A DNA stretch of 24,056 nucleotides from a virus: positions 1 through 24,056 of IMG/VR virus record IMGVR_UViG_3300021178_000043. One strand, 5' to 3'. A program made the translations under genes and the position numbers. Within the stretch, counting starts at the first letter, position 1, and the number at the start of each line of letters is the position of its first letter. Under the pieces are notes generated by a model. It made no database searches, had not been told where the DNA came from, and saw nothing but the letters and a program-made list of their open reading frames with translations. Below are positions 2 to 23,100 of the stretch, in pieces.

Positions 2-1072
2 ATCCCATTCTGCGGGGTAGCCGGAGCCGAGCTATCCCGCATCCTGATCGAGACCATCCCGAATAACCGTTATACGGCTGACTTCCGCTTTGCACTTGGG
101 CGCTCCGGATGGCACCAAATGCGGAACGTGTGGGCCAAGGAGGCGGGGATTGCCTTCACCAACGTGGCCGCACTCCGTCCGCCAAACAATGACTTTGACT
201 TCCTCCTCTGTTCAAAGAAGGAGCTTCCAGATGACTATCCTCCAATTCCCCCACTCGGAAGAGGGAGGCTTGCCTATCTCAGGCCGCAGTATTTGGGTGA
301 GCTTGACCGTCTCCGAGTCGAAATTGAACAAGCCAGACCAGTCTGTATCGTGGCGGCTGGAGCTATTGCGACCTGGGCCCTCCTTGGAAGAACTGACATT
401 AGCAATGTCCGTGGCACTGCGACAGTGGGTTCGCCAGGAGGGGTTGCTCCGGGAGTAAAAATCCTTCCCACCTATCACCCCTCCGCCGTATTGCCGGGAC
501 GTGGGAGACGGGAGTGGCGTATCATCTGCATGGCCGACTTCTTAAAGGCCGTCAGAGAGTCGGCTTCGCCGACTCTCATCCGGCCTTTAAGAAAAGCACT
601 TATCAACCCCACCATTCCAGAAATAAAAGAGTGGTATCTCCAATCCCAAAACAGTCTCACAGCCACGCTTGGAGTGGATTGTGAAACAGCAGGCTCTCTA
701 ATCACCTGCATCAGTTTCGCCGACTCGCCTACGTCGGCTCTCACAATCCCATTCCGCTCCAAAGACGGTACCCGCAATTACTGGCCCACTCCAGAAGAAG
801 AGATGGTTGCCTGGTTCTACGTTCATGAACTCTTAACGGGCGGCCGCCCCCTCCTCTTCCAGAACGGCATGTATGACATGCAGTATCTGATCCGCATGGG
901 CTTCAACCTGCGCAATGCGCGCGAAGATACCATGCTTCTACACCATTCCCTCTATCCAGAAGTGCAGAAGAGTTTGGGCTTCCTCGGCTCCATCTACACC
1001 AACGAGGCCAGCTGGAAACTGCTGGGCCGACACCGCGCAACCAAAGTTAAAGGAGAAAAACTAGATGAATGA
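2..1072 (+). CDS. Split family A DNA polymerase, N-terminal part: UDG-like domain plus first half of 3'-5' exonuclease (partial at 5' end)
   Basis: The frame is open to the window edge, so the ATG at 119 is internal and the true start is off the left side. The first visible residues (PFCGVAGAEL) match the PFxGxAG motif of the uracil-DNA glycosylase superfamily; TNVAALRPPNN and a late HPS (about visible residues 53-63 and 159-161) fit its other motifs. After a linker comes a DnaQ-like 3'-5' exonuclease: motif I DCE (D226, E228) and motif II NGMYD (N288, D292). The expected motif III (YxxxD) is missing; the protein stops after KGEKLDE, and motif III is at the start of the gene at 1459. Together the two products would rebuild one UDG-exonuclease-polymerase protein of the kind fused in other phages. 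The stop overlaps the next ATG by 8 nt. Domain calls are from motifs; activity and reassembly are inferred. Confidence 0.8.
   Translation: MPFCGVAGAELSRILIETIPNNRYTADFRFALGRSGWHQMRNVWAKEAGIAFTNVAALRPPNNDFDFLLCSKKELPDDYPPIPPLGRGRLAYLRPQYLGELDRLRVEIEQARPVCIVAAGAIATWALLGRTDISNVRGTATVGSPGGVAPGVKILPTYHPSAVLPGRGRREWRIICMADFLKAVRESASPTLIRPLRKALINPTIPEIKEWYLQSQNSLTATLGVDCETAGSLITCISFADSPTSALTIPFRSKDGTRNYWPTPEEEMVAWFYVHELLTGGRPLLFQNGMYDMQYLIRMGFNLRNAREDTMLLHHSLYPEVQKSLGFLGSIYTNEASWKLLGRHRATKVKGEKLDE
541..591. repeat. Compound hairpin, 11 bp outer and 10 bp inner arms, between UDG and exonuclease domains
   Basis: Outer arms: CTTAAAGGCCG (541-551) and CGGCCTTTAAG (581-591). Inner arms: GAGAGTCGGC (555-564) and GCCGACTCTC (568-577) around TTC. 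A 3x3 internal loop separates them. It codes for FLKAVRESASPTLIRPLRKA in the linker of the polymerase N-terminal gene. Confidence 0.9.
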
Positions 1073-1451
1073 ACCAACTCCAGGAGATGGTTACTGGTAT
1101 ATGGCCGGTCCATACTCCGACAACATAGAAGAGCGCTATCAGCAGCATTTAAATGCGGTCTCTGTTTTGACGCGAGCCAAGCTCACCATATACTCTCCAA
1201 TAGTCCATTATCATATGGTAGCCCAAGTGTTTAATATGCCAACTAATGCAGCCTTCTGGAATGAACATAACTACAATATGATACTCCCATCTAGAGGAGT
1301 AATTCTCCTATGTCTTACAAATTGGGCTGACTCAAAAGGAGTCAGGAGCGAGCTTAATTTTAGCAGAGACAAAGGAGTCCCTGTCTGGGCACTCGATCCG
1401 CCAATCTATCAAGGGACTGAAGTAAACCTCGTATGGACTCGCATGATCTGA
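1065..1451 (+). CDS. DUF1937 / nucleoside 2-deoxyribosyltransferase-like protein lying inside the split polymerase
   Basis: A 128-residue protein with the GYWYMAGPYSDN start typical of DUF1937/DUF4406-like, nucleoside 2-deoxyribosyltransferase-related proteins, and a later DSKGVRSEL segment. The Glu of that segment corresponds to the catalytic nucleophile region of nucleoside deoxyribosyltransferases, so an enzymatic role in nucleotide metabolism is possible but not shown. The start ATG follows a strong Shine-Dalgarno (AAAGGAG, 1049-1055) and overlaps the previous stop; the next gene begins 7 nt after its own stop. The central part is clearly richer in A and T than the flanking polymerase halves, which fits independent acquisition. 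Its position between exonuclease motifs II and III is the odd point: it splits a conserved domain rather than lying between domains. Confidence 0.75.
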   Translation: MNEPTPGDGYWYMAGPYSDNIEERYQQHLNAVSVLTRAKLTIYSPIVHYHMVAQVFNMPTNAAFWNEHNYNMILPSRGVILLCLTNWADSKGVRSELNFSRDKGVPVWALDPPIYQGTEVNLVWTRMI

Positions 1452-1458
1452 GATTTTA

Positions 1459-2997
1459 ATGCCAATTATCCAGACAGCCGCAATAGAACCTGGCAAACTG
1501 AATATTGAGGAGCAGCATCAGACCTATTGTGCGCTCGACTCCATGCTCACCCTGGAGATCCTTGAGAATATTAATCGGGAGCATCCGGGCGGAGCAGAGC
1601 CCATCTACTCCTTTGAGCGGGCGCTTCAAGCTCCTCTCCTGGAGATGGCTCTTCACGGCTTCCTCGTCGATGGACTGGATCGGCACCGTATGGAGCTTCA
1701 AGTTAAAAAGAAGGTGCAAGAGTCCCGCATGGTGCTGGACGAGCTAGCTCAGCCTATCTGGGGCAAGAGTCTCAACCCCCGCTCTCACACCCAGCTGTCC
1801 GAGTTCTTCTATAAGACTATGAAAATCCCAGAGATCTGGCTCTCCTTCAAAGGCGAAAGACGGCTGTCGGTTAATCGGGAGGCCCTGGAGAAGATAGATG
1901 AGTATATGTATGCTCGTCCGCTGGTCTCTCTTATCCTTTCATGCCGCGACTTCTACAAGCAGTTGGATGTTTTGACGGAGGAGATAGACGAAGATGGACG
2001 ACACCGAACGAGCTACAATATTGGCGGTACGGAGACTGGTCGATTATCTTCGTCAACTTCCGTCCTCGGAACGGGAGGCAACGCTCAGAATATTGCTCCT
2101 GAACTTAGACGGGTCTTTATCTCAGATCCAGGCTGGAAGCTCTGCTCAATTGACCTCGAACAGGTTGAGGCGCGTGACGTGGGTTTCATCTGTGGTTGCC
2201 TGTTTGGGGATTGGTCTCTCCTGGATTCTTGCGAGTCGGGGGACTTCCACACCAACAACTGCAGACTTATATGGCCAGATCAGCCTTGGCCAGCCGATCC
2301 CGCTGGTTGCCGTCAGCTGGCTGAACGCATCCCCGTCTACCGCGACTGGACTATGCGGGATTTGGCCAAGCGAGGAGGCCATCTCACCAACTACAACGGC
2401 ACCGCCTGGACAATGAGCCGCGTGCTAAAGCTCCCCATCAAGGTATGTGCGGAGTTCCAGGCTAGATATTGTCGTGGCAGTAGCCACGACAATATCAGGC
2501 CAGCCTATCCCGCACTTCGCCAATACTGGAACTGGATAGCTGACCGGCTCCAGACAAAAGGCTCTATAACAACTCCGTTTGGAAGACAGCGTCACTTCTT
2601 CGGAGATCAGCGGAGCGATGCGACCCTGCGGGAGGCGATCGCATTCGTTCCCCAATCAATGACTGCCGACAGGACTAATTTGTGGCTCTGGAAGGTATGG
2701 GCAACTCTCCAAAACCGTATCCAGCTATTGGCACAGACACACGACTCCATCACATTCCAGTTTCGCGAAGACGACGACATTGACGAAATAGTCACTATCG
2801 TCTTAGATTTGTTAGGCGACATTAAGCTCGTAGACTCGAAGAGTCTACGAGCTTATATGGCGCCGGGGGCTGCTAAAGTAGGATGGAATTGGGCACCTGA
2901 GTCGGAAAACAATCCGGCCGGACTAATGAAGTGGAGGAGGGGAACACAAGACAGGCGCTCCAGGCCGAAAGGCCTGGAGCGACTGATGGGAGGATGA
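1459..2997 (+). CDS. Split family A DNA polymerase, C-terminal part: exonuclease motif III and polymerase domain
   Basis: The 512-residue protein starts just before exonuclease motif III (YCALD, residues 23-27), so its first residues complete the exonuclease of the upstream gene. Polymerase landmarks follow: TETGRLSS (191-198); motif A with D232, E237, R239; motif B with R300, K304, Y312 and GT 314-315; motif C THDS with H428-D429, where the usual HDE has Ser in third place. This is the PolA-type replicative enzyme. The only upstream in-frame codons before a stop are TCT, GAG, ATT and TTA, so ATG 1459 is the start; its Shine-Dalgarno is weak and translation may be coupled to the preceding gene. 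Three perfect hairpins lie inside the coding sequence, at residues 336-346, 455-466 and about 500-508; the first two look like in-frame insertions. The stop is 6 nt from the next start. Confidence 0.9.
   Translation: MPIIQTAAIEPGKLNIEEQHQTYCALDSMLTLEILENINREHPGGAEPIYSFERALQAPLLEMALHGFLVDGLDRHRMELQVKKKVQESRMVLDELAQPIWGKSLNPRSHTQLSEFFYKTMKIPEIWLSFKGERRLSVNREALEKIDEYMYARPLVSLILSCRDFYKQLDVLTEEIDEDGRHRTSYNIGGTETGRLSSSTSVLGTGGNAQNIAPELRRVFISDPGWKLCSIDLEQVEARDVGFICGCLFGDWSLLDSCESGDFHTNNCRLIWPDQPWPADPAGCRQLAERIPVYRDWTMRDLAKRGGHLTNYNGTAWTMSRVLKLPIKVCAEFQARYCRGSSHDNIRPAYPALRQYWNWIADRLQTKGSITTPFGRQRHFFGDQRSDATLREAIAFVPQSMTADRTNLWLWKVWATLQNRIQLLAQTHDSITFQFREDDDIDEIVTIVLDLLGDIKLVDSKSLRAYMAPGAAKVGWNWAPESENNPAGLMKWRRGTQDRRSRPKGLERLMGG
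2465..2496. repeat. Perfect hairpin, 14 bp arms, inside the polymerase domain
   Basis: GATATTGTCGTGGC (2465-2478) pairs exactly with 2483-2496 around AGTA. It codes for residues 336-346 (RYCRGSSHDNI), just before PAYPALRQYW, where related polymerases usually continue directly from the helix into an (F/A)xPG/A-x-R-xYW segment. Confidence 0.9.
2823..2855. repeat. Perfect hairpin, 15 bp arms, near the polymerase C-terminus
   Basis: TAAGCTCGTAGACTC (2823-2837) pairs exactly with 2841-2855 around GAA. It codes for residues 455-466, where polymerases of this type have a short basic strand leading to the final GxNW. Confidence 0.9.
2956..2981. repeat. Perfect hairpin, 11 bp arms, GAAA loop, at the 3' end of the polymerase gene
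   Basis: CGCTCCAGGCC (2956-2966) pairs with GGCCTGGAGCG (2971-2981) around GAAA, a GNRA tetraloop. The ribosome binding site of the ATPase gene follows 7 nt later. There is no U-run, so it is not a classical terminator. Confidence 0.85.
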
Positions 2998-4191: not shown

Positions 4192-4425
4192 ATCCGCCTC
4201 ATGTTCTTCAATCTGAAGCTCATTATATTGCAGAATACCTGTGGCCACTGCAATGGCCACCGCCTGCGGCAAATTAACTGCATTCAGTTTTAATCTGACA
4301 CGATCCAAATAAGTCTTGACTGAGGGGAACGTAAGCCCAATAATAACACCTGTCTCTGCATAAGTCTTCCCGCGTGCAATCCACAGCAGACATTCACGTT
4401 CCCTGCCCGAAAGCTCGTGCCTCAT
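4174..4425 (-). CDS. Stand-alone LuxR/GerE-type helix-turn-helix protein
   Basis: The 83-residue protein is almost entirely one LuxR-type DNA-binding domain: LSGRERECLLWIARGKT, then GLTFPSVKTYLDRVRLKLNA, then QAVAIAVATGIL (about residues 5-64). These match the conserved positions of the GerE fold, including the recognition helix. There is no acyl-homoserine-lactone or receiver domain, so it is not a complete quorum-sensing or response regulator. Similar free-standing domains are common in alphaproteobacterial genomes. The start overlaps the stop of the preceding ejection-protein gene (ATGA) with no Shine-Dalgarno, so it is probably translated by coupling and made late. The stop overlaps the end of the convergent ATPase gene. 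It may regulate phage late genes or host promoters, or act as a decoy; the sequence does not decide. Confidence 0.8.
   Translation of the reverse strand: MRHELSGRERECLLWIARGKTYAETGVIIGLTFPSVKTYLDRVRLKLNAVNLPQAVAIAVATGILQYNELQIEEHEADLSEVG
4241..4260. repeat. Short inverted repeat in the HTH gene (7 bp arms)
   Basis: GTGGCCA at 4241-4247 pairs with TGGCCAC at 4254-4260 around a 6-nt loop. It lies in the codons for the alternating Ala-Val segment of the HTH protein. It is shorter than the other hairpins of this window and may be chance. Confidence 0.4.
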
Positions 4426-6725: not shown

Positions 6726-6732
6726 AACTCAC

Positions 6733-8361: not shown

Positions 8362-9000
8362 TTACTCCTCCTCTTCTTCCCCGGGGCCACCTTCGCCTTG
8401 CGGCGAAGGAGTCCCCATTCCACCAGGAGCTAATGCTCCTCCCATTGGAGCGCCGCCTTGCGGCGCTCCTGGCATGGCTCCTTGTGCAGCCATATGTCGC
8501 TGTTTGATTGAGTGGACATGGAGAGAGGCCATACCAGTAATGGCCCTATGGACAGCGGACGCCTTAAATTTCTGTTGCAGCATTTGATCCATCTGCTGCG
8601 CTCTCTGATCTTGCTGTTCAACCCACGCTTGGAGCGCCTCCCCTCCAGTGGTCGGCATCTGCGCCAGCATCTGCGCCAGCGCTGTCGGACTAAACCCGGC
8701 TCCCACCATCGTCCCAGCCCCTTCGATCACATCCTCCACCTGGATCTGATCCCCTTTCTTCTTCAGCGAGTCCAACATACTCCTTGCAACATTCATCCTC
8801 TTCACAGAAGCTTGCAACTGCTTATGCTGCGCTTGCGCCTGTTGCCAATTCTGTTCAACGTGCTGCTCCACGCTAAAATTGCCCGGACTTTGCCCCGGCG
8901 GCTGAGGTTTCGCCAGCGCATTCGGAGGACCACCCATCGGAATGCCAGGAGGCATTCCACCCGGCATCACACCTGGGGCCATTGCATTCCCATTAGGCAT
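8362..9000 (-). CDS. Small Gln/Met/Gly-rich internal virion protein candidate
   Basis: The 212-residue protein begins with a Met/Pro/Gly-rich segment (residues 1-40), followed by a long helical Gln-rich region (about 42-165), and ends with Gly/Pro-rich sequence and a run of Glu. The family is not recognised. The composition and position within the putative ejection block suggest a virion-internal protein or assembly partner. The start has an excellent Shine-Dalgarno (AAGGAGG, about 7 nt upstream). Two perfect hairpins fall in the codons for the Gly/Pro-rich C-terminal part (8390-8409 and 8447-8469). Confidence 0.55.
   Translation of the reverse strand: MPNGNAMAPGVMPGGMPPGIPMGGPPNALAKPQPPGQSPGNFSVEQHVEQNWQQAQAQHKQLQASVKRMNVARSMLDSLKKKGDQIQVEDVIEGAGTMVGAGFSPTALAQMLAQMPTTGGEALQAWVEQQDQRAQQMDQMLQQKFKASAVHRAITGMASLHVHSIKQRHMAAQGAMPGAPQGGAPMGGALAPGGMGTPSPQGEGGPGEEEEE
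8390..8409. repeat. Perfect hairpin, 8 bp arms, GNRA-type loop
   Basis: CCTTCGCC (8390-8397) pairs with GGCGAAGG (8402-8409). The loop reads GCAA on the transcribed strand, a GNRA tetraloop. It is in the 3' part of the coding sequence at 8362-9000. Confidence 0.75.
8447..8469. repeat. Perfect hairpin, 10 bp arms
   Basis: GGAGCGCCGC (8447-8456) pairs with GCGGCGCTCC (8460-8469) around a 3-nt loop. It encodes part of the Gly/Pro/Ala tail of the protein at 8362-9000, 37 nt from the 8390 hairpin. Confidence 0.8.
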
Positions 9001-9799: not shown

Positions 9800-10315
9800 C
9801 TAAGCCTCCTCCTGGGTGGGGGAGCTTCGCTCCCCCACCCAAAGCATGTAAGTCTGTTGAATAGGAACAGCTCCCAGACTTTGGAAGAACCGTCCCAATC
9901 TCACTCCCCTGCCTTGGAGTCTATGATGCGGAAACACACACTGTACGCCGATCTTCTTCAGCTCATCCAAACTGACCATGAACAGCTTGGCGGCCCCTCC
10001 CCACGGAGCACCCTCCCCCACATACCACGCTCCTTGCGTTGCAATGGGCAGCCCCTCACTCTCCAAATCCCAGTTTACATTCCATGAACAATATCCATAA
10101 ATCTCACCATCCACTCTCAACGTAAACCACCTAATAAATCCCAGCCTGTCCGCCTGAATGATCCGCGCCACATCCAGCTTAAACGGTCTCGGACTCCCTT
10201 CTGGCTCAACCTCCTTAGCATGAGCCCTCGTCAGATCTCTGATCGCAGGCCAAATAGCCTCAAACGGCTCCCTCTGAACCCGGACAAATCTATGCGGAAC
10301 AGCCTCAGCTAACAT
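9800..10315 (-). CDS. GNAT-like acetyltransferase family protein of phage type
   Basis: A 171-residue protein starting MLAEAVPHRF. The TTG codon two codons upstream is too close to the GGAG ribosome binding site, so ATG at 10315 is preferred. The order of strands and helices, with GEIYGYCSWNV in the middle, a GAWYV-GEGAPWGGAAKLF segment (about 96-112) where the acetyl-CoA-binding turn would be, and GVRLGRFFQSLGA near the end, fits the divergent GNAT proteins that many phages carry in their late region. The substrate is unknown. It overlaps the sulfotransferase-like gene by 11 nt, so the two are likely made together. A perfect 13-bp hairpin forms codons 159-168, immediately before the ribosome binding site of the next gene. 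Confidence 0.6.
   Translation of the reverse strand: MLAEAVPHRFVRVQREPFEAIWPAIRDLTRAHAKEVEPEGSPRPFKLDVARIIQADRLGFIRWFTLRVDGEIYGYCSWNVNWDLESEGLPIATQGAWYVGEGAPWGGAAKLFMVSLDELKKIGVQCVFPHHRLQGRGVRLGRFFQSLGAVPIQQTYMLWVGERSSPTQEEA
9813..9841. repeat. Perfect hairpin, 13 bp arms, GAA loop, just before a ribosome binding site
   Basis: The arms are TGGGTGGGGGAGC (9813-9825) and its exact complement (9829-9841). On the transcribed strand the apex reads GCGAAGC, a sequence known to form an unusually stable mini-hairpin in DNA. It encodes the end of the GNAT-like protein and is followed at once by GGAGGAGG and the start of the 9011-9799 gene. No U-run follows, so it is not a classical terminator. Confidence 0.85.
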
Positions 10316-10883: not shown

Positions 10884-11350
10884 CAGAAGCCTCCAGGAAA
10901 CCAAACAGCCGACGGCGCAGGCCCATACCAGATCACGTTTATGTGATCGCCCTCCACCATAACGATCTGCCCACCCAGCATAGACGCCTTATAAAAGTTG
11001 ACCCCATCCCTCGAGTAATCCACTTCCCCGCCCGACAGCGCCATAAACCCGTTCACCGTGGCCCTAAAGGGCCACGGCGAACTTACCAGTGTTTGAACGA
11101 CAGGAGCCGATTTAGCAACTGGTCCTCCCCCGATCGGTGTCCCATTGCTCGGTCCTGGTCCTGAAATGACTGGCCCAGCTGGCGTCTCAATGACCACATA
11201 GGAGTTTTGAATATTTGTTGTCCCGCCACCCGTCTTGGCCCACAGCGCCTGAAAGAAATATTGCCACGCAGGCGTGAGCTGTCCGAAGCCATCCACAATC
11301 TGGAAGTCTTTCGGAAAAGACGACGAGAACTGGTAGGGGTTAACGCCCAT
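10883..11350 (-). CDS. Small tail / fibre-associated protein
   Basis: A 155-residue protein. The N-terminal part contains LTPAWQYFFQALWAKTGG (about 25-42), a pattern seen in many small podoviral structural proteins located next to the tail hub and fibres. The middle is Pro/Gly/Ser-rich; the C-terminus has short strand-like segments and ends GPAPSAVWFPGGF. No enzyme motif is present. The start overlaps the stop of the gp10-like gene by one base (TGATG) with little Shine-Dalgarno, which suggests coupled translation. The hairpin at 11051-11082 lies within the codons for SSPWPFRATV. Confidence 0.5.
   Translation of the reverse strand: MGVNPYQFSSSFPKDFQIVDGFGQLTPAWQYFFQALWAKTGGGTTNIQNSYVVIETPAGPVISGPGPSNGTPIGGGPVAKSAPVVQTLVSSPWPFRATVNGFMALSGGEVDYSRDGVNFYKASMLGGQIVMVEGDHINVIWYGPAPSAVWFPGGF
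11051..11082. repeat. Hairpin, 9 bp perfect plus 4 bp outer arms
   Basis: CCGTGGCCC (11056-11064) pairs with GGGCCACGG (11069-11077) around TAAA. Beyond a single mismatch, GTTC (11051-11054) pairs with GAAC (11079-11082). It is inside the coding sequence of the small tail protein. Confidence 0.8.
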
Positions 11351-12972: not shown

Positions 12973-14580
12973 TCACCGCATACGTCTGGCCCCAATATAT
13001 CCCATACCCGCCGTCGTTCCTCCACCAGTAACCTGCGCAATCAGAAAAACACTCTTGGAGGCATTCGTATTGACCCTACACCTTCCAGTCGGTATAAAGA
13101 ATGCTCCAGACTGCAATCCACCTTGACTCTGAAACATTGCTGCAGTCCCATTCAACACATTAGCCGTAGTCGGCAATGCAGCACTCGTATTACTTACCCC
13201 CACAATCACCTGCGATGGACCATTCTGCGCAGTAAAATAGACCACGCCAGACACGTCCCAATCACCCGCTGTCAGTGCCAGCGTAGCAATATTGGTCGGC
13301 GTTCCGCTCGTAATACCTACTCCAACTGTCACCGACGCAAACAGCACCTCTCCCACACACCCAGCCGGAGGATTATCTCCCGCTACCGATCCCAGCAGGT
13401 TCAGCACCCCCGTCATATTCACGCCGCCAGCCTGCGGCACCTTCGTATCCGAATACTGTTTGGTGACAGCGCCGAGCGGCGCAGTCGGATCGCCGGACAG
13501 CGTCAGAAGCCCGGACATGATGTCGCCAGACTTCGACACCTTATTGCCGTCCGCTGGATGCACATGATCCGCTCTGGCCCACGTGATCCCCGTCCCAACC
13601 GCTGCTGTCCCCGCCATCAGCGGAACAGTAGTGGAAGGCCCCGGCACAGCAGCATCCACATACTGCCTCGGAGTCGCCATCAACGCTGTCGTCGGATTAC
13701 CATTGAGCGTCAGCGGCCCTCCCATCGTATCGCCAGACTTCGACAGCTTACTCGGATCAGACGGATGCTGATGGTCCCCCCTCGAATAAACTGCCGACGT
13801 CCCTGCCGACCCAGTTCCATCCGGTGCAGGCACCGTATTCGACCCAGCCGGAACAATGGGAGCTGGTACAAAAATACGCGTATCAGTCCCCAGAACAGCC
13901 GTATTCCCCGTATCCGTACTCACCGCACTGGGTCCGGCTGGACCTTGCGGTCCAGCCGGTCCCTGTGCTCCCGTATTCCCCGTATTCCCAGTCGGCCCAG
14001 CCAGTCCCTGCGGTCCTTGCTGTCCAATCGGACCCTGCGGACCCTGCGCCCCAGTCAGCCCAGTATTCCCAGGCGGTCCCTGCTGTCCAGCCGGGCCTTG
14101 CGCTCCCGTCAGTCCAACATCTCCCTTAGGACCTGCCGGACCCTGTGGCCCAGCAGCTCCCACTCCGCCATCTTGCCCGGCGGGACCAGGCGGTCCCGCC
14201 ACTCCAGCCGACCCAGGTGTTCCCTGCGCCCCAGCCGGACCAGCAGGCCCAATTGTCCCAGGCGCTCCTGATGGTCCCTGCAACCCAGTCATGCCAGGAT
14301 TTCCCTGGTCTCCCTTCGGTCCAGCCGGTCCTTGAGGCCCCGTATTCCCTGGAGGCCCACTCGGCCCAACCGGTCCCTGCGGGCCTGGAGGCCCAACACC
14401 TCCCTGACTTTCGTCCAACACAACCCAGTCGCCACTCTGCATCCCATAGACCTGCCCATCCACAGGCGCAGTCACCGGATGACTATCAGCCTCAGCAGCC
14501 AGCGTTTGTAAATCCAGTCCGGTCGGCATCACCGGCCCAGTAGAGACGTTGAAGCTCGGATACTTCCCAGTAACTGTCAT
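12973..14580 (-). CDS. Collagen-like tail fibre
   Basis: A 535-residue fibre protein. The N-terminus ([17 protein letters not shown] and LDLQTL) is shared with the fibre gene at 16709-17641 and is probably the common attachment or assembly segment. Residues 60-218 form 53 uninterrupted Gly-X-Y triplets, which should make a trimeric collagen-type rod. After it come two fibre-type repeats containing GDHQHP and [13 protein letters not shown], then ADHVHP and [13 protein letters not shown], and a C-terminal beta-rich domain ending [10 protein letters not shown]. It probably acts in host recognition at the tail. The start has GAGGAGG and lies 32 nt after the preceding gene, in a gap occupied by a perfect palindrome. 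Confidence 0.85.
13927..14403 (-). repeat. Collagen-like Gly-X-Y repeat array (53 triplets)
   Basis: The coding repeat is Gly-X-Y without interruption. Frequent triplets are GPA, GPQ, GPP and GNT, with occasional PKGD segments. Because the Gly-Pro codons GGN CCN are nearly self-complementary, some inverted repeats here are expected from composition, including CCGGCTGGACC at 13934-13944 paired with 13949-13959. Confidence 0.9.
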
Positions 14581-14592: not shown

Positions 14593-14620
14593 TTGCTTAA
14601 TTGATCAATCAATTAAGCAA
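14593..14620. repeat. Perfect palindrome, 13 bp arms, across a stop codon
   Basis: TTGCTTAATTGAT (14593-14605) pairs with its exact complement (14608-14620) around CA. On the transcribed strand it includes the stop of the SPRY fibre gene and is followed directly by GAGGAGG and the start of the collagen-like gene. It is AT-rich, unlike most hairpins here. No U-run follows. Confidence 0.85.
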
Positions 14621-16652: not shown

Positions 16653-16685
16653 GAGCTATCGTCCTCCTTTGGAGGACGGTAGCTC
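16653..16685. promoter_or_regulatory. Hairpin enclosing the ribosome binding site of the SPRY fibre gene
   Basis: GAGCTATCGTCCTCC (16653-16667) pairs with GGAGGACGGTAGCTC (16671-16685): 15 bp with one mismatch that is wobble-tolerant on one strand, and a 3-nt loop. On the mRNA the AAAGGAGG Shine-Dalgarno falls in the loop and 3' arm, paired to CCTCC, and the stem ends at the GTG start. Folding would hide the ribosome binding site; regulation is inferred. Confidence 0.65.
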
Positions 16686-16708: not shown

Positions 16709-17641
16709 CTATACCCTCTTCGCCAAAATGGTAATTCCCACATCCGCCAGCGTGCTATCACTCGTCGACGGAGCGACGAGTGATAGCACATCACCCACCG
16801 CTATACTGCCACCAGCCCCAGCCAATGTTGCAGACGTATGCGATGCAGGAGTAATAGTGATTGTCCCTAGCGCAGTCGTCACTCCAGCCGAAATTTTATT
16901 CAACGTGAAAGTTGCATTAGCAGTCGCCTGCGTAGCGTCATAAACAACTGTCCCCGCCAGCGCAGCCGCAACTGTCAGAGCCATCGCCGCCGGAGCGTTA
17001 ACCATCGCCCCATTCGCCGGGACGCCCGGAAACGCAAAACTGATCGGAACACTCTGCACTTCAGCTGGCAGCATCGCATACGTAATAGCCCCTGTAACCG
17101 CATTGGCCAAAACAAAAGCAGTCGTCGCAATACTACTTGAATTATCCCCCAACAGTGGAGTCGGCGCAGTCGGGTTCCCCGTCAATGGCGGACTATTGAG
17201 CGGGGCATAATTCATATTAGAGGCCCCAGTTACTAACCCCTTCGCGTTGACCGTAATTCCCTGAAAAGTTCCCACATTCACATTCACATTGGCCAGTGTC
17301 GCCGTAATATTTGTGGTCCCCAACCCAGTCAAATCACCACCCAGCGTAATAACCTGATTACCCGTCAAGAAGGTCGCAGTCGCAGCAGCCCAATCCGTCA
17401 AATCCCCATGATTGAGCGTGACAATCCCCGTCTTCCCTGCCACACTCGAAACCAAATTACTCGACGGCACAACTACCCAGCTAGCATTCTGCCTCCCATA
17501 CAAGTTCCCATTGGAGGGGGCGTCCGGTATCCCGCCCCCTCCTTGAAGCATATCCTGCACCAGCTGCTGCAGATCTTGGCCGGTTGGCATAAGCCGACCA
17601 AAACTAGTATTGAAGCTAGGGTACTTCCCAGTCGAACTCAT
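16709..17641 (-). CDS. Tail fibre protein sharing its N-terminus with the collagen-like fibre
   Basis: A 310-residue protein. The N-terminal segment (GKYPSFNTSFGRLMPTG, then QDLQQL) is the same module as in the 12973-14580 fibre. It continues with SSVAGKTGIVTLNHGDLTDW, a common phage fibre motif, and repeats of the APLNSPPLTGNPTAPTP type, then a C-terminal beta-rich domain (about 200-310). No enzyme motif is visible. The ATG at 17641 has GAGG at a 7-nt spacing, 9 nt after the preceding stop. Near the 3' end the codons for LVAPSTSDSTLADV contain a perfect 16-bp palindrome, which could be an insertion in the C-terminal domain. Confidence 0.7.
   Translation of the reverse strand: MSSTGKYPSFNTSFGRLMPTGQDLQQLVQDMLQGGGGIPDAPSNGNLYGRQNASWVVVPSSNLVSSVAGKTGIVTLNHGDLTDWAAATATFLTGNQVITLGGDLTGLGTTNITATLANVNVNVGTFQGITVNAKGLVTGASNMNYAPLNSPPLTGNPTAPTPLLGDNSSSIATTAFVLANAVTGAITYAMLPAEVQSVPISFAFPGVPANGAMVNAPAAMALTVAAALAGTVVYDATQATANATFTLNKISAGVTTALGTITITPASHTSATLAGAGGSIAVGDVLSLVAPSTSDSTLADVGITILAKRV
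16752..16789. repeat. Perfect hairpin, 16 bp arms, within a fibre gene
   Basis: GTGCTATCACTCGTCG (16752-16767) pairs exactly with 16774-16789 around a 6-nt loop. It encodes the residues around APSTSDSTLA near the fibre C-terminus. Confidence 0.9.
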
Positions 17642-17650
17642 TCTCGTGCC

Positions 17651-18103
17651 TCAGGCGAAGTCGGCGACCTGCTTCCACACACCCACAGTCATACACACAA
17701 ACAGGGACGTATGCCCCGCAGCCAGCGCAACAGCAGCCGTCCCCGCATTCGGTGTCGTAACTCCGTGCGGGATAATCACATCCGTCAGCGAGTTATTCTG
17801 CGAATTGCTCTGCAGATTGAACACATTCATACTTGCCGCACCACCATTATAAACCCAGCTCCAGGCATTTATAATGGCCGGTGGCAGCACCACGGAGTCC
17901 GCCGCCGTAGCGCAGACATCTACCTCATTAAACCCCAGATTGAGCGGAGTCGCAGCAGCGACTCCACCGCCCGCATGAGCCACAATACCATTCACGCAGC
18001 CCAGCACCATGTTGAAGAACTTCGACATCTCTGTCGCATCTATCAACCCCGACCCTCTCCCCGTCTGAAGAGAGGGCAAATAAGCCAGATGAGACCTTGC
18101 CAT
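17651..18103 (-). CDS. Small structural protein, paralogue of the next upstream gene
   Basis: A 150-residue protein. Residues about 35-150 align by eye with the 128-residue product of 18171-18557: NGIVAHAGGGV / NGIVALAGGAL, NEVDVCATAADSVVLPPAI / NEVNTVVTTGDSVVMPPAV, and a shared ending SLFVC---GVWKQVADFA / SLFIC---GIWKQVADNA. The family is not named. Its size, composition and location between the head-tail adaptor and fibre genes suggest a head-decoration or minor tail protein. The N-terminal 35 residues (LAYLPSLQTGRGSGLID) are an addition. The ATG directly abuts a hairpin whose 3' arm contains the AAAGGA ribosome binding site. Confidence 0.6.
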   Translation of the reverse strand: MARSHLAYLPSLQTGRGSGLIDATEMSKFFNMVLGCVNGIVAHAGGGVAAATPLNLGFNEVDVCATAADSVVLPPAIINAWSWVYNGGAASMNVFNLQSNSQNNSLTDVIIPHGVTTPNAGTAAVALAAGHTSLFVCMTVGVWKQVADFA

Positions 18104-18140
18104 CAGGTGTCCTTTCGCCTTTCAGGCGAAAGTCCACCTG
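18104..18140. promoter_or_regulatory. Hairpin enclosing the ribosome binding site of the 17651-18103 gene
   Basis: CAGGTG (18104-18109) pairs with CACCTG (18135-18140) and, after a 2x2 internal loop, CCTTTCGCCT (18111-18120 region) pairs with AGGCGAAAGG around a TTC loop (GAA on the mRNA). The mRNA 3' arm carries the AAAGGA Shine-Dalgarno and ends at the ATG. Pairing would block ribosome access; a regulatory role is inferred. Confidence 0.65.
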
Positions 18141-18170
18141 AGAGGCCATTAGAGAGAACAGATACCTTAC

Positions 18171-18557
18171 TCATGCGTTGTCGGCGACCTGCTTCCAAAT
18201 GCCCTGTGTCGTGCAAATGAACAGGCTCACGTGCCCATTCAGCAGCACCAACCCAGTCGCACCCGCAACCAGCGCCACCGACCCATGCGCCACAAACTGA
18301 TCCAGCGCATTATTGTTGAACGGATTGGCCTGGGCCACAATCTTCATTGACAGCCCAGCCGCCGTGTTCTGCGCATTCACATAAACACTGCTACCCATCA
18401 CGGCAGGCGGCATCACAACGGAGTCACCCGTCGTGACCACTGTATTCACCTCATTCATCCCCGTTGACAGCAACGGCGTGAGCGGAGTGAGCGCACCACC
18501 AGCCAGCGCCACAATGCCATTCGTGACCGGGTTATTCGGAAGCGTATAGACTGACAT
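18171..18557 (-). CDS. Small structural protein, paralogue of the neighbouring 17651-18103 gene
   Basis: The 128-residue protein begins MSVYTLPNNPVTNG and has the NEVNTVVTTGDSVVMPPAVMG core and SLFICTTQGIWKQVADNA ending that are repeated in the gene downstream. The two genes look like a tandem duplication that later diverged. It may decorate the capsid or sit at the head-tail junction; nothing in the sequence fixes the function. The ribosome binding site is GAGAGGA about 6 nt before the ATG, 13 nt after the gp4-like gene. Confidence 0.6.
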   Translation of the reverse strand: MSVYTLPNNPVTNGIVALAGGALTPLTPLLSTGMNEVNTVVTTGDSVVMPPAVMGSSVYVNAQNTAAGLSMKIVAQANPFNNNALDQFVAHGSVALVAGATGLVLLNGHVSLFICTTQGIWKQVADNA

Positions 18558-18570
18558 CTCAGTTCCTCTC

Positions 18571-19422
18571 TCAGTAAGACCTATCCGAGAATATGTTATA
18601 TATTCCCGGCCTACTCAACTCCTGTGGCAGGCTAAGTTGAGCAATCTGCACAGAAGTATTCTTGATCGCCGCTCTCGCACCCTTCGCAAGATCCGGCAGC
18701 TGATCTCCAGGAAACGTCCTCATCCCATAATGCGGCCTCAGCCGTACAGCCAAATTCAGATAAAAAGCATTAAAGTAAATGAACGGCAGCTCAATCAAAT
18801 CCTGCGTCGTCACAAACTGAAGTGGAAGCTGATCCCTAACAACCACACCAACACCATAAATAGAATTAGTAGGCAAAGGATACAGAAAAATTCTGCCAAG
18901 CGGCCAAGCCGGATCATAGTAATACGCTCCTGGAAAACTCACCATCCCCTTAAGCGCAATCCTAGAATAGTCCTGCATCGCATCCAGCGCATACAGCGGA
19001 TAGTCAATCGGAATTCCTCCCCCGGTTGAAGGCTGCCTTAAAAAGGCAGCCTTCAACCTTCGTGGAGCTACTGATTTAGATTGCGTCGGTGTCACGGTCG
19101 TATTGTCTGGTCCAGTCTCAAACCCTCCCAGCGTCCCTGCTCCCGGCCCAATTGGAAAATAGTAGACTGGGTGACTCGGCGTCCCCATATCTGGATCAGT
19201 TGGCAGCAGTGCAGTATTCACCTGCGGCACCGTTATAGTCCTTGTCCTCCAGACTATAAAAGTGTCTTCCCCCCACTCCTGCAACATCCACTGCAGCCTC
19301 GCCCAAGCATCCGCAATCTCCTCTCCCGTCGGACTCTGACCCTGCCCGACTGCACCGCACTCCTTCAGCGCAGCCATACAAATGTCATTGACCGAAGTCG
19401 CGAGAGGAGTTAGCTGGGACAT
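18571..19422 (-). CDS. P22 gp4-like head-tail adaptor / tail accessory factor
   Basis: A 283-residue protein. The N-terminal part matches gp4-type adaptors: ICMAALKECGAVGQGQSP, then DAWARLQWMLQEWGEDTF (about 40-57). The central segment contains LKAAFLRQ, IDYPLYALDAMQDYSRIALKG, YYYDPAWPLGRIFLYPLP, and the C-terminus NLAVRLRPHYG followed by a helical tail, as in longer members of the family. In P22 gp4 binds the portal ring and provides the seat for gp10, which is also present here. The ATG follows the stop of the preceding gene directly (TAAATG) and depends on an AAGG ribosome binding site inside that gene. A perfect 16-bp hairpin covers codons 122-133. Confidence 0.8.
   Translation of the reverse strand: MSQLTPLATSVNDICMAALKECGAVGQGQSPTGEEIADAWARLQWMLQEWGEDTFIVWRTRTITVPQVNTALLPTDPDMGTPSHPVYYFPIGPGAGTLGGFETGPDNTTVTPTQSKSVAPRRLKAAFLRQPSTGGGIPIDYPLYALDAMQDYSRIALKGMVSFPGAYYYDPAWPLGRIFLYPLPTNSIYGVGVVVRDQLPLQFVTTQDLIELPFIYFNAFYLNLAVRLRPHYGMRTFPGDQLPDLAKGARAAIKNTSVQIAQLSLPQELSRPGIYNIFSDRSY
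19024..19058. repeat. Perfect hairpin, 16 bp arms, in the adaptor gene
   Basis: GGTTGAAGGCTGCCTT (19024-19039) pairs exactly with 19043-19058 around AAA. It codes for RLKAAFLRQPST. Part of this segment resembles conserved gp4-family sequence, so one arm may be ancestral and the other new. Confidence 0.9.
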
Positions 19423-19929
19423 TTACGCAGCCTTCCCTGGTGCAGGCCCAGCCTTGGCAGGCTGGGCCTGCGGAGCTGTTGCCTCAGCCAGTTTCTTCTC
19501 CAGCTCGGCAATCCGCTCTTGCTGAAGCTCCGCGTGAGTCTTGGGTGGCGCCTTCAGATGAGTCTCAGGATTGGCCCTCAGCGCTTGCGCCTCTGTAAAA
19601 TGCCAGCCCTGTGCTACCATCTCAGCTTCCTGAGCCTCACTCTCCACAATGATATTCTTCACCCCCCACACCGCTCCCGCATATTTCGGCTTCCCTGTCT
19701 CATCAAAGACCGGCCGACTATCCCGGTCCGTAACCAGAATACCCTGGTTAATGCAATGCAGCTCCCCCTTGGGATGATACAGCATCTTCGGATACTGCAC
19801 CGGCCCCTCATAAATGGAGAGCCCATCATTATTGATTGCCTGGACATTAGCCTTGTTCGTCTCAAACAGTCCTCTATCCTCCATCGAATGATAGATGGAG
19901 TAGACTTTATTCATCCGGTTCCTTGCCAT
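19423..19929 (-). CDS. Phage accessory protein with YPKMLY motif
   Basis: The 168-residue protein begins MARNRMNKVYSIYHSMEDRG. The middle has VQYPKMLYHPKGE, followed by a region around IIVESEAQEAEMVAQGWHF, and a helical Ala/Glu/Lys-rich C-terminus (about 125-168). A YPxMLY segment followed by an Ala/Glu-rich turn and G-W/F is common in small phage proteins near the capsid gene and is repeated in the 20120-20635 product. The function is unknown. The ATG shares one base with the preceding stop (TAATG). A 13-bp hairpin lies in the last codons, which encode PQAQPAKAGPAPGK. Confidence 0.5.
   Translation of the reverse strand: MARNRMNKVYSIYHSMEDRGLFETNKANVQAINNDGLSIYEGPVQYPKMLYHPKGELHCINQGILVTDRDSRPVFDETGKPKYAGAVWGVKNIIVESEAQEAEMVAQGWHFTEAQALRANPETHLKAPPKTHAELQQERIAELEKKLAEATAPQAQPAKAGPAPGKAA
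19442..19471. repeat. Perfect hairpin, 13 bp arms
   Basis: GCAGGCCCAGCCT (19442-19454) pairs with AGGCTGGGCCTGC (19459-19471) around a 4-nt loop. It is in the C-terminal codons of the 19423-19929 gene, just before the stop. Confidence 0.85.
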
Positions 19930-20117
19930 TACTTCTTCTCCTTGTGTCTTTCAGCCCTGGTCATCTCCCCTCTCTTCACGCCCTTCGCCGTAGCCTTATT
20001 CGTTCCCTTCTTCAGCTCTCCAGCTTTCTGCAGCGTGCTGGTCGCCACAGCCCATGGATTAACTCCCGGACTGCTCTTCTTGATCGCCTTAACAGCGTCC
20101 TCCAAAATCTTGGGCAT
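19929..20117 (-). CDS. Small basic phage protein
   Basis: The 62-residue, lysine-rich protein MPKILEDAVKAIKKSSPG continues with NPWAVATSTLQKAGELKKGTN and ends in a basic tail. Similar short proteins with an AxATxxLQKAG-ELKKG core are frequent in phage genomes, but no function is known. GAGGAGG lies 5 nt before the ATG, within the end of the preceding gene, and the stop overlaps the next start by one base. Confidence 0.7.
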   Translation of the reverse strand: MPKILEDAVKAIKKSSPGVNPWAVATSTLQKAGELKKGTNKATAKGVKRGEMTRAERHKEKK

Positions 20118-20119
20118 CT

Positions 20120-20635
20120 CTACCTCCTCGTCGGCGGAGCCTTCGGCGGCGGAGCAGGAGTAGCAGGCTTCTTCACCTCCACAGACTTCTGCACACTCAC
20201 CGTCGCCGTCGTCGTAGTCTTTGTCTCCGGCTTCGGCTCCGGAGCAGACTCCTGTCTCTTGATGGGTGGCGGCATACCCCTCGACGGCAGCTCTTGACTC
20301 GGTCCTTCTGGACCCCCCTGATCCGGCCTCTGAGGCGGCTTGGGCGGATCTAAAATCCCAGGCGGCTTAGGCGGGTCCACAATTCCAGGCGGCTGATCCC
20401 GCTCCATGCTAGGATGCGGCCTGAAGCCATTCCTCGTCGCTTCAGCCCTTTCCTCCGCATCAAACACAATACACTCCCTATTCCCATCATAGAGCATCAT
20501 CGGATACTTTGCGCCAACTTCCGGCATGTCCTCCTCCTCTTCCTTGGGAGGCCAGAATTGGCCTCCCATCTCTTCCAGAAGACGCAGCCACTCGTCCTGA
20601 CTTTCCGAACCAGGACGAGGTGCCTGTATCTTCAT
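20120..20635 (-). CDS. Proline-rich accessory protein downstream of the capsid gene
   Basis: A 171-residue protein from the ATG at 20635, which overlaps the capsid stop by 4 nt (ATGA). A longer upstream reading would run far into the capsid gene and is less likely. The N-terminus is DEWLRLLEEMGGQF; the middle has the YPMMLYDGNREC segment similar to the next gene; the rest is Pro-rich, with PPGIVDPPKPPGILDPPKPP as a short internal repeat, and ends basic. It is likely unfolded over its C-terminal half. The function is unknown. Two hairpins (20545-20568 and 20591-20619) lie in the first 30 codons. Confidence 0.55.
   Translation of the reverse strand: MKIQAPRPGSESQDEWLRLLEEMGGQFWPPKEEEEDMPEVGAKYPMMLYDGNRECIVFDAEERAEATRNGFRPHPSMERDQPPGIVDPPKPPGILDPPKPPQRPDQGGPEGPSQELPSRGMPPPIKRQESAPEPKPETKTTTTATVSVQKSVEVKKPATPAPPPKAPPTRR
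20545..20568. repeat. Perfect hairpin, 10 bp arms
   Basis: TGGGAGGCCA (20545-20554) pairs with TGGCCTCCCA (20559-20568) around GAAT, in the 5' part of the Pro-rich gene. Confidence 0.8.
20591..20619. repeat. Hairpin, 9 bp arms, 11 nt loop
   Basis: CTCGTCCTG (20591-20599) pairs with CAGGACGAG (20611-20619). It is close to the start of the 20120-20635 gene and could influence its coupled translation. Confidence 0.65.
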
Positions 20636-21855
20636 ATCACGTCTGCAACCACGACGGCCCATTCCGGCCTGATCCACAGATACCCATACAGCACGTCAAG
20701 CCGGGTAATCAGCTGATCAGTGCCGATGAAGTAATCCGTAATCATCCTCATGGACACGCCATCAAACTGCTCACGCGCAACCGCATGCACGCCCTCTGGA
20801 GTCTCCAGATCCGCAGTCGCCAGCGTCACTGCCTCCGGAGCGAACACAAAATTCTTCCGATAGACAGAGGACGGTGCCAGTCCATTGGTCGGATTGACAG
20901 CCGCTCCATTCGCCGGGCTTGCCGTCACCGTCTGATACTGCACCGGCAGCCCACCACTTGGAGGCACAACAGCCGGATACACATTCAGCGTAGTCCCGCC
21001 AACTGCGAGCGGAGCCGTCACGACAAACTGCTCCAGCTGCCCAGTCGTCTGCTTGGTGATCCTATTCACCTTAAACACACCAGCAATAGTGACAATGTCG
21101 CCCACCGCCAGCGTGCTCGCAGCCGCCGTAACCGTAATCGCCAGTCCAGTCTGATTGGCTCCATTGACCGTGAGCGAACCTTGCGCCATGGTCCCAGACG
21201 TATGGGTGATGACGGTCTGGTCCTTCATCCAGATGAAACCGAGCGCATCATACATCCGCCCAGTCACATACTGCCGTCCGATCTCCGGCGCCGGATTGAG
21301 CAGTCCAGCCAGCGTGGCAACCATTCTGGCCTCAGTGACCGGATTATTAACCACCTTCCGGTTCTCAATCGGCCCCGAGTTGTTATCCAGGTTGGCACCC
21401 GCAAGCAGATAGGTGGCTGCAATGGGGCTCAGAACGTTGTTGCTCGCGTCCTGATTGGCCACAAAATTGCAGATCCCGCCCTCAGCCCCCGACATAAGAT
21501 CCGCCGCAACTGACCCAGCCAGGTTATTCACCGCCGGAGCCAAAATCCTCCGGGAGAAGTCATCCAAGCTGAGAGTCCGCTCCTGTGTCGTGAACTGCAC
21601 ATCCACGTGCTTCTGCGTCGCCATAGTAAGCGTCGTATTCTGCTCCGCAGTATCCTGCACACTCAGCGCAGGCCCCGTCGTCACAATATAGTCGTTCGGG
21701 AGCCTGATCCTCAGCGTATTGCCGATCTTGGCCCCCGCCACCGCAAAGGAGTCATCATACTGCATATCCACGTTCTGCAGAAACGCATTGCTATTCTTCC
21801 AGAGTCTGACCGCCTCTCTTGTGATCAGATTAATAGTGAGTAGGGTATTAGCCAT
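20632..21855 (-). CDS. Major capsid protein, P22 coat protein family
   Basis: A 407-residue protein beginning MANTLLTINLITREAVRLWK, followed by YDDSFAVAGAKIGNTLRIRLPNDY, the opening typical of P22-type (HK97-fold) coat proteins. A QEWTL-like region is present as FTTQERTLSLDDFSRRI (about 88-104). In the middle (about 225-310) are beta-rich sequences (LAITVTAAASTLAVGDIVTIAG), which correspond to the extra I-domain of P22 coat. The C-terminal part contains ETPEGVHAVAREQFDGVSMRMI. The scaffold gene lies two genes upstream. Two ATG codons are adjacent (21858 and 21855); the second has the better spacing (5 nt) from GGAGG. That GGAGG is the 3' arm of a hairpin. Confidence 0.9.
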   Translation of the reverse strand: MANTLLTINLITREAVRLWKNSNAFLQNVDMQYDDSFAVAGAKIGNTLRIRLPNDYIVTTGPALSVQDTAEQNTTLTMATQKHVDVQFTTQERTLSLDDFSRRILAPAVNNLAGSVAADLMSGAEGGICNFVANQDASNNVLSPIAATYLLAGANLDNNSGPIENRKVVNNPVTEARMVATLAGLLNPAPEIGRQYVTGRMYDALGFIWMKDQTVITHTSGTMAQGSLTVNGANQTGLAITVTAAASTLAVGDIVTIAGVFKVNRITKQTTGQLEQFVVTAPLAVGGTTLNVYPAVVPPSGGLPVQYQTVTASPANGAAVNPTNGLAPSSVYRKNFVFAPEAVTLATADLETPEGVHAVAREQFDGVSMRMITDYFIGTDQLITRLDVLYGYLWIRPEWAVVVADVI

Positions 21856-21859
21856 CATA

Positions 21860-21882
21860 GCCTCCGTCCTTCGGCCGGAGGC
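21860..21882. promoter_or_regulatory. Hairpin enclosing the ribosome binding site of the capsid gene
   Basis: GCCTCCG (21860-21866) pairs with CGGAGGC (21876-21882), with two more pairs inside a single mismatch and a TTC apex (GAA on the mRNA). On the mRNA the GGAGG Shine-Dalgarno of the capsid gene is the 3' arm and is paired to CCTCC. A strongly expressed gene with a hidden ribosome binding site is unexpected; it may be melted by ribosomes or used for timing. Confidence 0.6.
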
Positions 21883-21930
21883 TCGAAGGAGCAGCCAGTA
21901 ACGGCAGTAGAGCGACTACCAGATAGCTCT

Positions 21931-21957
21931 ACAGGGTTTCGCTTTGCTAAACCCTGT
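21931..21957. repeat. Hairpin, 9 bp arms plus 2 inner pairs
   Basis: ACAGGGTTT (21931-21939) pairs with AAACCCTGT (21949-21957); after one mismatch GC pairs with GC around TTT. It is intergenic, before the capsid gene. Confidence 0.75.
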
Positions 21958-22037: not shown

Positions 22038-22277
22038 TCAGTCTTTCCAAGTCGCCGCCTTCACGGCCCACATTTGCGCTCCCTGCGCCTCGGTAATTGC
22101 AACCGACCAGAGCCGCTTCTTCTCGCCACTCGCATCAGGACTATTCCGATATTCATCGCAGATATCGATAATCCGTGCATAGAGCGCTTTCAGTTCACTC
22201 ACAAGCGGATCACCGCTCGGGTTAAAGGTCAGACCAACAGCCTTCTGACCAAAAGTCAACTCCCGTTCCTGCTCCAT
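22038..22277 (-). CDS. Acb2/Tad1-like cyclic-nucleotide sponge (candidate anti-CBASS / anti-Thoeris protein)
   Basis: A 79-residue protein (80 if the overlapping GTG at 22280 is used). The segment LTFGQKAVGLTFNPSGDP near the N-terminus and AITEAQGAQMWAVKAATW at the C-terminus match by recall the small two-helix proteins of the Acb2/Tad1 hairpin family (formerly unnamed phage DUFs). Characterised members assemble into oligomers that bind cyclic di- and tri-nucleotides or gcADPR-type signals, and so silence CBASS and Thoeris defence. The ATG overlaps the scaffold stop by one base (TGATG), with GAGGAGG about 8 nt upstream, so expression is coupled to scaffold. Family assignment rests on these two motifs; ligand and activity are inferred. 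Confidence 0.75.
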   Translation of the reverse strand: MEQERELTFGQKAVGLTFNPSGDPLVSELKALYARIIDICDEYRNSPDASGEKKRLWSVAITEAQGAQMWAVKAATWKD

Positions 22278-23059
22278 CACCTAATCCTCCTCTCAGCCGC
22301 CTGTTTGTTCCGCGCATTCATCCAGTCGTCAATCTTCATCTCAGCCCCCCTCTCTGGATCATCCGGCTTCGTCGTCGTCACCGGGCTTGTGCTCCCAATT
22401 GGCCTAATCGGCTTAGGAGCCTTACTTGGGGAAGATTGGCCTCCTTCGGAGGCCAACTTCCCCACTTCCATTGCCATCTTCATCGGGCTCAACGCCAGTA
22501 TTCTTGATGCAACATTCAAATCACTCCCCAGCTTATGAATAATTGCCTCGGCATCCCCCGTCTCCAACGCAGCCTCCAAAAACAGATTATACTGCTGAAG
22601 ACTTCGAGCGTCCGTCTGGTCCACCAGCTGGGTCAGCCCATTCAGCTTAACCTGCCAATCCGGATACTTGCTCGCCCCCCTATTCGCAGCCTCATTACAC
22701 CTTGTATTGAAAGCCGTCTGGTTCGCCACCAGAGTAGCTCTCTCATTAATCATCTGGTCAATCTGGGCAGGCGTGAACGCCTGCCCAGTGGCAGGATCTA
22801 TTGGCTGCTGTCCGCCCGCAGCTCTCGCTTCATAGTCTCTCAGCCGGGCCGTCAGCTTGGCAACCCGATCTACGGCACTCTTGGGCCACTGACCCGAGGT
22901 GTGAGGGGAAGGAGTGGGAGAAGGAGGTGCCCCCTTATCCTTCCCCTCTTCGACGGGAGCCTCATGCGTCTGAGTCTCGACCGCCGCTCCGGAGGGCTGG
23001 GGGGAGTCGCCAGTACCCTCCGAACCAACTACAACCTTATCATTCTCATCAGGGTCCAC
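22277..23059 (-). CDS. Capsid scaffolding protein
   Basis: A 260-residue acidic, helical protein without Cys-rich or catalytic motifs. An unfolded Pro/Ser/Glu-rich N-terminus (1-60) is followed by coiled segments (WPKSAVDRVAKLTARLRDYEARA, cut here into parts) and a middle helical region. The C-terminal part has MKMAMEVGKL, SKAPKPIRPIG and a final IDDWMNARNKQAAERRIR, cut to its sense: a basic helix. This SKAPKP-IxP-G plus DxWMxxRN tail is typical of scaffolds preceding P22-like coat genes in phages, where the basic C-terminal helix contacts the coat. The start is GTG at 23059, with GGAG at a 7-nt spacing; no suitable ATG is near. Hairpins at 22427-22464 and 22763-22788 lie within it. Confidence 0.8.
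   Translation of the reverse strand: MDPDENDKVVVGSEGTGDSPQPSGAAVETQTHEAPVEEGKDKGAPPSPTPSPHTSGQWPKSAVDRVAKLTARLRDYEARAAGGQQPIDPATGQAFTPAQIDQMINERATLVANQTAFNTRCNEAANRGASKYPDWQVKLNGLTQLVDQTDARSLQQYNLFLEAALETGDAEAIIHKLGSDLNVASRILALSPMKMAMEVGKLASEGGQSSPSKAPKPIRPIGSTSPVTTTKPDDPERGAEMKIDDWMNARNKQAAERRIR
22427..22464. repeat. Long hairpin, 9 bp plus 8 bp arms with one bulged base
   Basis: TTGGCCTCC (22436-22444) pairs with GGAGGCCAA (22448-22456) around TTC (GAA on the transcribed strand). After a bulged A, TGGGGAAG (22427-22434) pairs with CTTCCCCA (22457-22464). It codes for VGKLASEGGQSSPS in the scaffold gene, where it may be an insertion before the conserved SKAPKP. Confidence 0.85.
22763..22788. 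repeat. Perfect hairpin, 11-12 bp arms
   Basis: CTGGGCAGGCG (22763-22773) pairs with CGCCTGCCCAG (22778-22788) around TGAA. It is in the scaffold gene, coding for TGQAFTPAQI. Confidence 0.85.
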
Positions 23060-23076
23060 TTAATTTCTCCTTGAGC

Positions 23077-23100
23077 CTTTCGGCTCTATCGAGCCGAAAG
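23077..23100. repeat. Perfect hairpin, 10 bp arms, in the gap before the scaffold gene
   Basis: CTTTCGGCTC (23077-23086) pairs with GAGCCGAAAG (23091-23100) around TATC. GAGCC at 23073-23077 can instead pair with GGCTC at 23082-23086 around TTTC, so two mutually exclusive folds are possible. It lies between the 23103 stop and the scaffold ribosome binding site. No U-run follows on the transcribed strand. Confidence 0.8.

Follow-up and report, generated by a model that had tools for sequence, protein, structure and literature searches.

Dense hairpins in a lineage of uncultured podovirus-like phages: a possible DNA-level process that makes and keeps palindromes

The window analysed in this study, a 24-kb metagenome contig (24,056 nucleotides) from an uncultured podovirus-like phage (IMGVR_UViG_3300021178_000043), carries short, mostly perfect DNA hairpins in numbers far above chance, and so do most of its close relatives. 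In our judgment the chances are about even that these hairpins are the products of a lineage-specific DNA process, being neither copies of an element nor RNA elements. Such a process most likely acts on DNA, because the pairing is strictly Watson-Crick, the loops are of kinds that are stable in DNA, the palindromes cost amino acids, and their occurrence is restricted by lineage.

Our standard count covers perfect arms of at least 10 bp with loops of 2 to 8 nucleotides, overlaps removed. By this count the window holds 15 hairpins (16 if loops of up to 10 are allowed), against 0.07 to 0.5 in first-, second- and third-order Markov shuffles; with arms of at least 12 bp there are 8 in the window and 0 in the shuffles. 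Shuffling synonymous codons within genes, which the original prediction had named beforehand as its refuting test, left a mean of 0.15 and a maximum of 2 hairpins over 100 replicates where the real genes have 11, and the claim of an excess far above chance holds. G001, the longest close relative (43,311 bases, analysed whole), has 55 hairpins where 0.4 are expected. Among phages used as yardsticks, the same count gives 1 in the first 50 kb of N4, 0 in T7 and 4 in the first 50 kb of T4. Nineteen of the 20 hairpins originally listed lie where they had been placed; the one at 20591 is absent with arms of at least 8 bp, and some of those described as perfect are imperfect, for example 539-593, 18103-18141 and 21859-21883 (Table 1). 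The GAA and GNRA apexes reported for the sense strand are present as claimed.

Relatives were gathered from IMG/VR through their capsid, polymerase and Hc3 proteins; no near DNA match to the window was found in the phage collection. Most relatives are contigs of uncertain completeness, and gene starts and frames come from a simple open-frame caller. The hairpin-rich phages form a clade of uncultured phages from soil and water. At capsid identities of at least 92%, most loci have 4-10 hairpins per 10 kb and 2 of 12 (L010 and L013) have about 2; at 79% or below, hairpins are absent from most loci. Whole contigs, counted with arms of at least 10 bp, gave 55 hairpins in G001, 28 in G002, 15 in the window, 12 each in G004 and G006, and 9 in G003. 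In G005 (capsid identity 72%) there are 42, but G018, the genome closest to it (88% in capsid and 86% in polymerase), has 5, none of them of 12 bp or more; 8 of the 11 other relatives at 72-79% have 0-3, the remainder being G012 (4), G018 and G010 (8). G003, whose capsid is 97% identical to that of the window, lacks hairpins of 10 bp or more over the final 8 kb of its contig, an early region whose counterpart is the densest part of G001. The single rich clade, the contrast between G005 and G018, and the gap in G003 together indicate that hairpin richness is lineage-specific, that it was gained more than once or lost more than once, and that it is not essential to phages of this kind.

The arms stay complementary as the sequence drifts. 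Shared hairpins are 80-100% paired at about 20% nucleotide divergence of the flanks, and both sides have changed in 31 of 451 pairs. Mismatches in unique hairpins comprise 11 G-U, 14 A-C and 37 others, and de-duplicated orthologous pairs give 16 G-U and 15 A-C; since G-U and A-C are about equal after de-duplication, pairs tolerated by RNA alone are not clearly favoured. Loops are mostly 3-5 nucleotides long, with recurring GNA, AAA, TAAA/TTTA, CAAG/CTTG and RCAAG motifs, and GC..GC closes 29 of 70 hairpins. Template-switch hairpins are enriched in GNRA and CTTG loops, both stable in DNA (PMC8794818). Five examples folded as single-stranded DNA formed the expected hairpins at -15 to -19 kcal/mol. 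Within genes, amino-acid identity to hairpin-free orthologues is 0.50-0.57 in the hairpin and 0.61-0.89 in the flanks, and the ratio of nonsynonymous to synonymous divergence (pN/pS) at hairpin gains is about 1.3-2.4 times the flank value; the protein sequence has therefore yielded to the palindrome.

A process with these properties could work as follows. Chance short inverted repeats with a small, DNA-stable loop would fold in single-stranded or cruciform phage DNA, and mismatches in the folded stem would be corrected to Watson-Crick pairs at a raised rate, with either arm as the template; either the replicating polymerase would switch templates or the hairpin would undergo mismatch correction. 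Repeated rounds would lengthen and perfect the stems and keep old stems perfect as the sequence drifts, and occasionally a whole arm might be added by foldback synthesis. Under purifying selection on proteins, hairpins would survive in coding stretches that tolerate change and in positions just beyond ribosome-binding sites.

Several observations weigh against this account. No enzyme, host or rate has been pinned down. A first count over orthologous sites gave 24 G-U and 10 A-C mismatches, with related comparisons counted repeatedly, and sense-strand purine-rich loops prevail in early genes (51:19), a bias present neither in late genes (28:22) nor in G005 (16:20). Synonymous divergence in shared arms is 0.37-0.40 against 0.63-0.66 in the flanks, on 3-6 sites per comparison, and selection for structure would slow silent change in the same way. 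It may be no more than that hairpins survive in stretches where the protein tolerates change. Set against hairpin-free orthologues, the two arms are equally diverged (identity 0.61 and 0.58; flanks 0.79), and at 25 gains of the substitution type the arm changes number 81 on the left and 81 on the right, with 59 pairs changed on both sides against 57 under arm independence. These changes do not fall in blocks (75 arm switches, 71.7 when permuted); simple template switching would be expected to conserve one arm and rewrite the other in blocks, which is not the pattern seen on average. At the intergenic sites 18112 and 21931 close relatives have wholly different hairpins, and the copying of one arm does not explain why both arms are new there. 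Finally, 21 of the 66 G001 hairpins scoring at least 10 lie -5 to 40 nucleotides upstream of a start, against 3.8 at random, and 13 of those 21 sit 13-20 nucleotides upstream, just outside the ribosome-binding site.

Much of this evidence bears on the main rival, which we regard as possible though we lean against it: selection, at the level of mRNA or DNA, for a structure that might for example insulate ribosome-binding sites, protect mRNA or mark sites for a structure-specific phage protein, with pair-adding point mutations favoured in either arm. If DNA pairing were gradually selected, much the same pattern would be expected. The placement upstream of starts, the interleaved and equally numerous arm changes and the suppressed silent change in shared hairpins all speak for it, as does a hairpin upstream of the capsid gene that persists though its sequence has been replaced. 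Against it stand the de-duplicated mismatch counts, gains that raise pN/pS instead of using silent sites, and the hairpin-free early region of G003. Moreover, most hairpins lie within genes (42 of the 66 in G001 wholly so, where genes make up 90% of the genome), and they are not regularly spaced, their distribution being Poisson-like or clustered (coefficient of variation 1.1-1.2). Enrichment upstream of starts is general in viruses and bacteria (PMC13155455) and is also expected from relaxed constraint. The positional enrichment and the suppressed silent change fit mutational and selection readings alike.

Two further features of placement concern the coding frame and the ejection genes. Phase-1 pairing is favoured in G001 (22:4:14, against 52:66:78 in chance hairpins) and in the window (6:0:5), is weak in G005 (10:8:7) and is absent in G004 (0:5:4). 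The ejection-protein block (4422-8361 in the window, 16762-20958 in G001) is poor in hairpins; in the window, as originally claimed, hairpins are nearly absent from it, with a single weak imperfect one against the 3.8 expected at the window mean. This block of two large presumed ejection proteins is hairpin-poor in the window, G001 and G002 despite its fast divergence.

It is also conceivable, though unlikely, that the hairpins are kept for use, with a structure-specific phage or host protein (acting, for example, in lagging-strand priming, recombination or genome protection) selecting any strong DNA hairpin at numerous sites and bending even protein sequence to supply them. The uses first proposed, namely N4-like promoters, DNA packaging and mRNA stability, found no support: the open frames of G001 include no giant virion RNA polymerase, N4 itself is hairpin-poor, and G-U is not preferred over A-C. 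Hairpin promoters of the N4 type go with a virion RNA polymerase of about 3500 amino acids; the longest open frame of G001, a record that may lack some genes, has 769, and we rejected this candidate.

The original prediction held that a local template switch or inversion makes, in a single copying step, the complement of a short stretch. The best reading is still a DNA-level process that renders the arms complementary, and three sites look like single events. The left arm at 9813 consists of conserved coding sequence, and G004 lacks the right arm. At L011:8364 the older arm is the right one, which contains a stop codon and ribosome-binding site, and its inverted copy, the left arm, is new. At G002:8559 two changes in one arm perfect the palindrome, the local stretch being otherwise identical to the window. 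One copying event per hairpin is quite unlikely, given the even split between arms and the lack of blocks at most comparable sites, although single events could be masked by how far the genomes have diverged. Changes interleaved in both directions are better explained by many small corrections, with now one arm and now the other as template (repeated short template switches, or correction of mismatches in the folded stem), or by selection for DNA pairing, than by a single block switch. At 18112 the left arm of L014 resembles that of G001 and its right arm that of the window, with incomplete pairing. A scan for loop inversions gave one candidate, TCA/TGA in L010/L011, which a single substitution explains equally well, the remaining matches being opposite strands of the same hairpin; we therefore rejected loop inversion as proof of intermolecular switching. 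Mosaic patches separate the window from the 99%-identical G002 at 1-1160, 18100-18230 and 22430-22650, and the hairpins differ inside them. Since differences in which one hairpin takes the place of another fall, between these two genomes, in recombined patches, recombination is one route by which hairpins change.

A dispersed palindromic mobile element of the REP, RPE or MITE kind is very improbable: the loops TAAA, ACAAG and GCAAG and the inner GC..GC do recur, but the hairpin arms of G001 match the rest of its 43 kb no more often than random stretches do, which bears out the earlier claim that the arms are unrelated. That hairpins in a metagenome contig are artefacts of assembly or amplification is barely credible, as hairpin-bearing DNA is 100% identical among G001, L007 and L008, contigs of different metagenome records, L005 matches the window at 99.9% identity, hairpins within window genes sit in intact open frames, and arms covary between genomes. 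Intrinsic terminators were rejected (no T enrichment after stems; 17 terminator-like sites against 14.8 in shuffles), as were tRNAs, and Rfam models matched no hairpin to a known structured RNA family. The split family-A DNA polymerase was rejected as a cause; hairpin-free relatives have it too.

That polymerase, encoded on the + strand at 119-2997 and followed by a primase/helicase-like gene, is in two parts with a DUF1937/DUF4406 gene (1065-1451) between the halves; the translation of the first part contains the Exo I and Exo II motifs, and a YxxxD Exo III motif opens the second. The gene order is the same in G001; in Caulobacter phage Kuura the split is occupied by other genes. Elsewhere the window encodes a DNA ejection protein (9011-9799), a head closure Hc3 protein (11350-12915), a collagen-like fibre (12973-14580) and a P22-type major capsid protein (20632-21858). 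Amid the structural genes lies a sulfotransferase-like protein (10305-10904) with a Pfam match under the cut-off. A protein of G001 (31965-32552; L093:11965-12552) has an apparent PEP-CTERM-like C-terminus (VPEPSTWAMILLGFAGLAFIGGRSRR), which is unusual in a phage. A search for the host led to a single contig of 3.4 kb within a Rhizobiales metagenome bin, which does not suffice to name a host.

Table 1. Hairpins of the window, with their setting in open reading frames (ORFs) and their state in related genomes
Position	Strand	Arms and loop	Setting	Related genomes
539..593	+	imperfect, 26-nt arms, 88%; perfect 10-bp core 555-577; loop TTC	UDG/exonuclease part of PolA	missing in 99%-identical G002 (recombined patch), G001 and G003
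2465..2496	+	perfect 14 bp, loop AGTA	within PolA	in G002 too; G001 and G003 hairpin-free
2823..2855	+	perfect 15 bp, loop GAA	within PolA	G001 counterpart perfect with other arms
2952..2985	+	15 bp, 1 mismatch, loop GAAA	PolA end, just upstream of start 3004	
8383..8416	-	8-bp perfect core, loop GCAA	end of ORF 8362-9000	gene end in G001 and G003 has a different hairpin
8447..8469	-	perfect 10 bp	within ORF 8362-9000	
9813..9841	-	perfect 13 bp, loop GAA	between conserved end of ORF 9800-10321 and next gene's ribosome-binding site	
11051..11082	-	14 bp, 1 mismatch, loop TTTA	in ORF 10883-11350	pair change covaries in G001
13925..13968	-	20 bp, 2 mismatches, loop GCAA	in collagen-like fibre gene	
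14593..14620	-	perfect 12-13 bp	just upstream of start 14580	not in G001 or G003
16653..16685	-	15 bp, 1 mismatch	at start of ORF 14613-16652	G001 site has a hairpin with other arms
16752..16789	-	perfect 16 bp	in ORF 16709-17641	common to G001; not in G003 or L011
18103..18141	-	18 bp, 2 mismatches, loop GAA	abuts start 18103	different hairpins in G002, G001 and L011; imperfect hybrid in L014
19024..19058	-	perfect 16 bp	in ORF 18571-19422	
19442..19471	-	perfect 13 bp, loop GCCA	about 20 nt upstream of start 19422	
20545..20568	-	perfect 10 bp	after capsid gene	clade-wide; partly in L015
21859..21883	-	11-bp arms, 1 mismatch, loop GAA	abuts capsid-gene start	
21931..21957	-	12-bp arms, 1 mismatch	upstream of capsid gene	different unrelated hairpin in most clade members; none in outgroup
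22436..22456	-	perfect 9 bp, loop GAA	in ORF 22277-23059	not in 99%-identical G002 (recombined patch)
22763..22788	-	perfect 11-12 bp	in ORF 22277-23059	
23077..23100	-	perfect 10 bp	18 nt upstream of start 23059	in G001 too

We found no report of a phage genome with such a hairpin density in the open-licence papers searched. Palindromes that cover a phage genome, with arms matched over long divergence, would offer a small and fast system for measuring how hairpins are made and kept. The origin and upkeep of long perfect stems, debated for RNA genes and for nematomorph mitochondria, would become testable. One caution is that covarying arms are not in themselves proof of a functional RNA. Surveys of perfect inverted repeats across genomes use the same hairpin definition and also find enrichment upstream of starts, but the viruses surveyed average 1.93 bp of inverted repeat per kb, with about half having none (PMC13155455), whereas the window has 17 and G001 has 39.

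Coding palindromes in Nematomorpha mitochondria, for which a repeat-conversion mechanism has been proposed (PMC6649704), come closest to what is seen here. In both systems perfect inverted repeats occur within genes beyond what codon shuffling yields, few are imperfect, no dispersed family exists, gain and loss are restricted by lineage, and phase-1 pairing is preferred. Unlike those of Nematomorpha, the palindromes described here belong to a phage, have shorter arms (10-26 nucleotides), and are found between genes and near ribosome-binding sites as well; there are also enough related phage genomes to watch the arms change. As to mechanism, the closest match is the template-switch correction of quasipalindromes (PMC7202029, PMC8604942, PMC8794818), a kind of mutation described by Ripley in 1982 and first seen in yeast CYC1 and phage T4 rIIB (PMC7202029, PMC8604942); template switching has been proposed both to create and to maintain RNA hairpins (PMC8794818). 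The phage hairpins share with it a proposed arm-to-arm correction at the DNA level, clustered changes, DNA-stable loops, single-arm insertions at some sites, and pairing without tolerance of G-U (11 against 14 A-C, and 16 against 15, but 24 against 10 with repeated comparisons). They differ in that quasipalindrome mutation is known from rare hotspots, while here there is one hairpin per 0.5-1.5 kb throughout the genome, changing mostly in both arms and in an interleaved manner.

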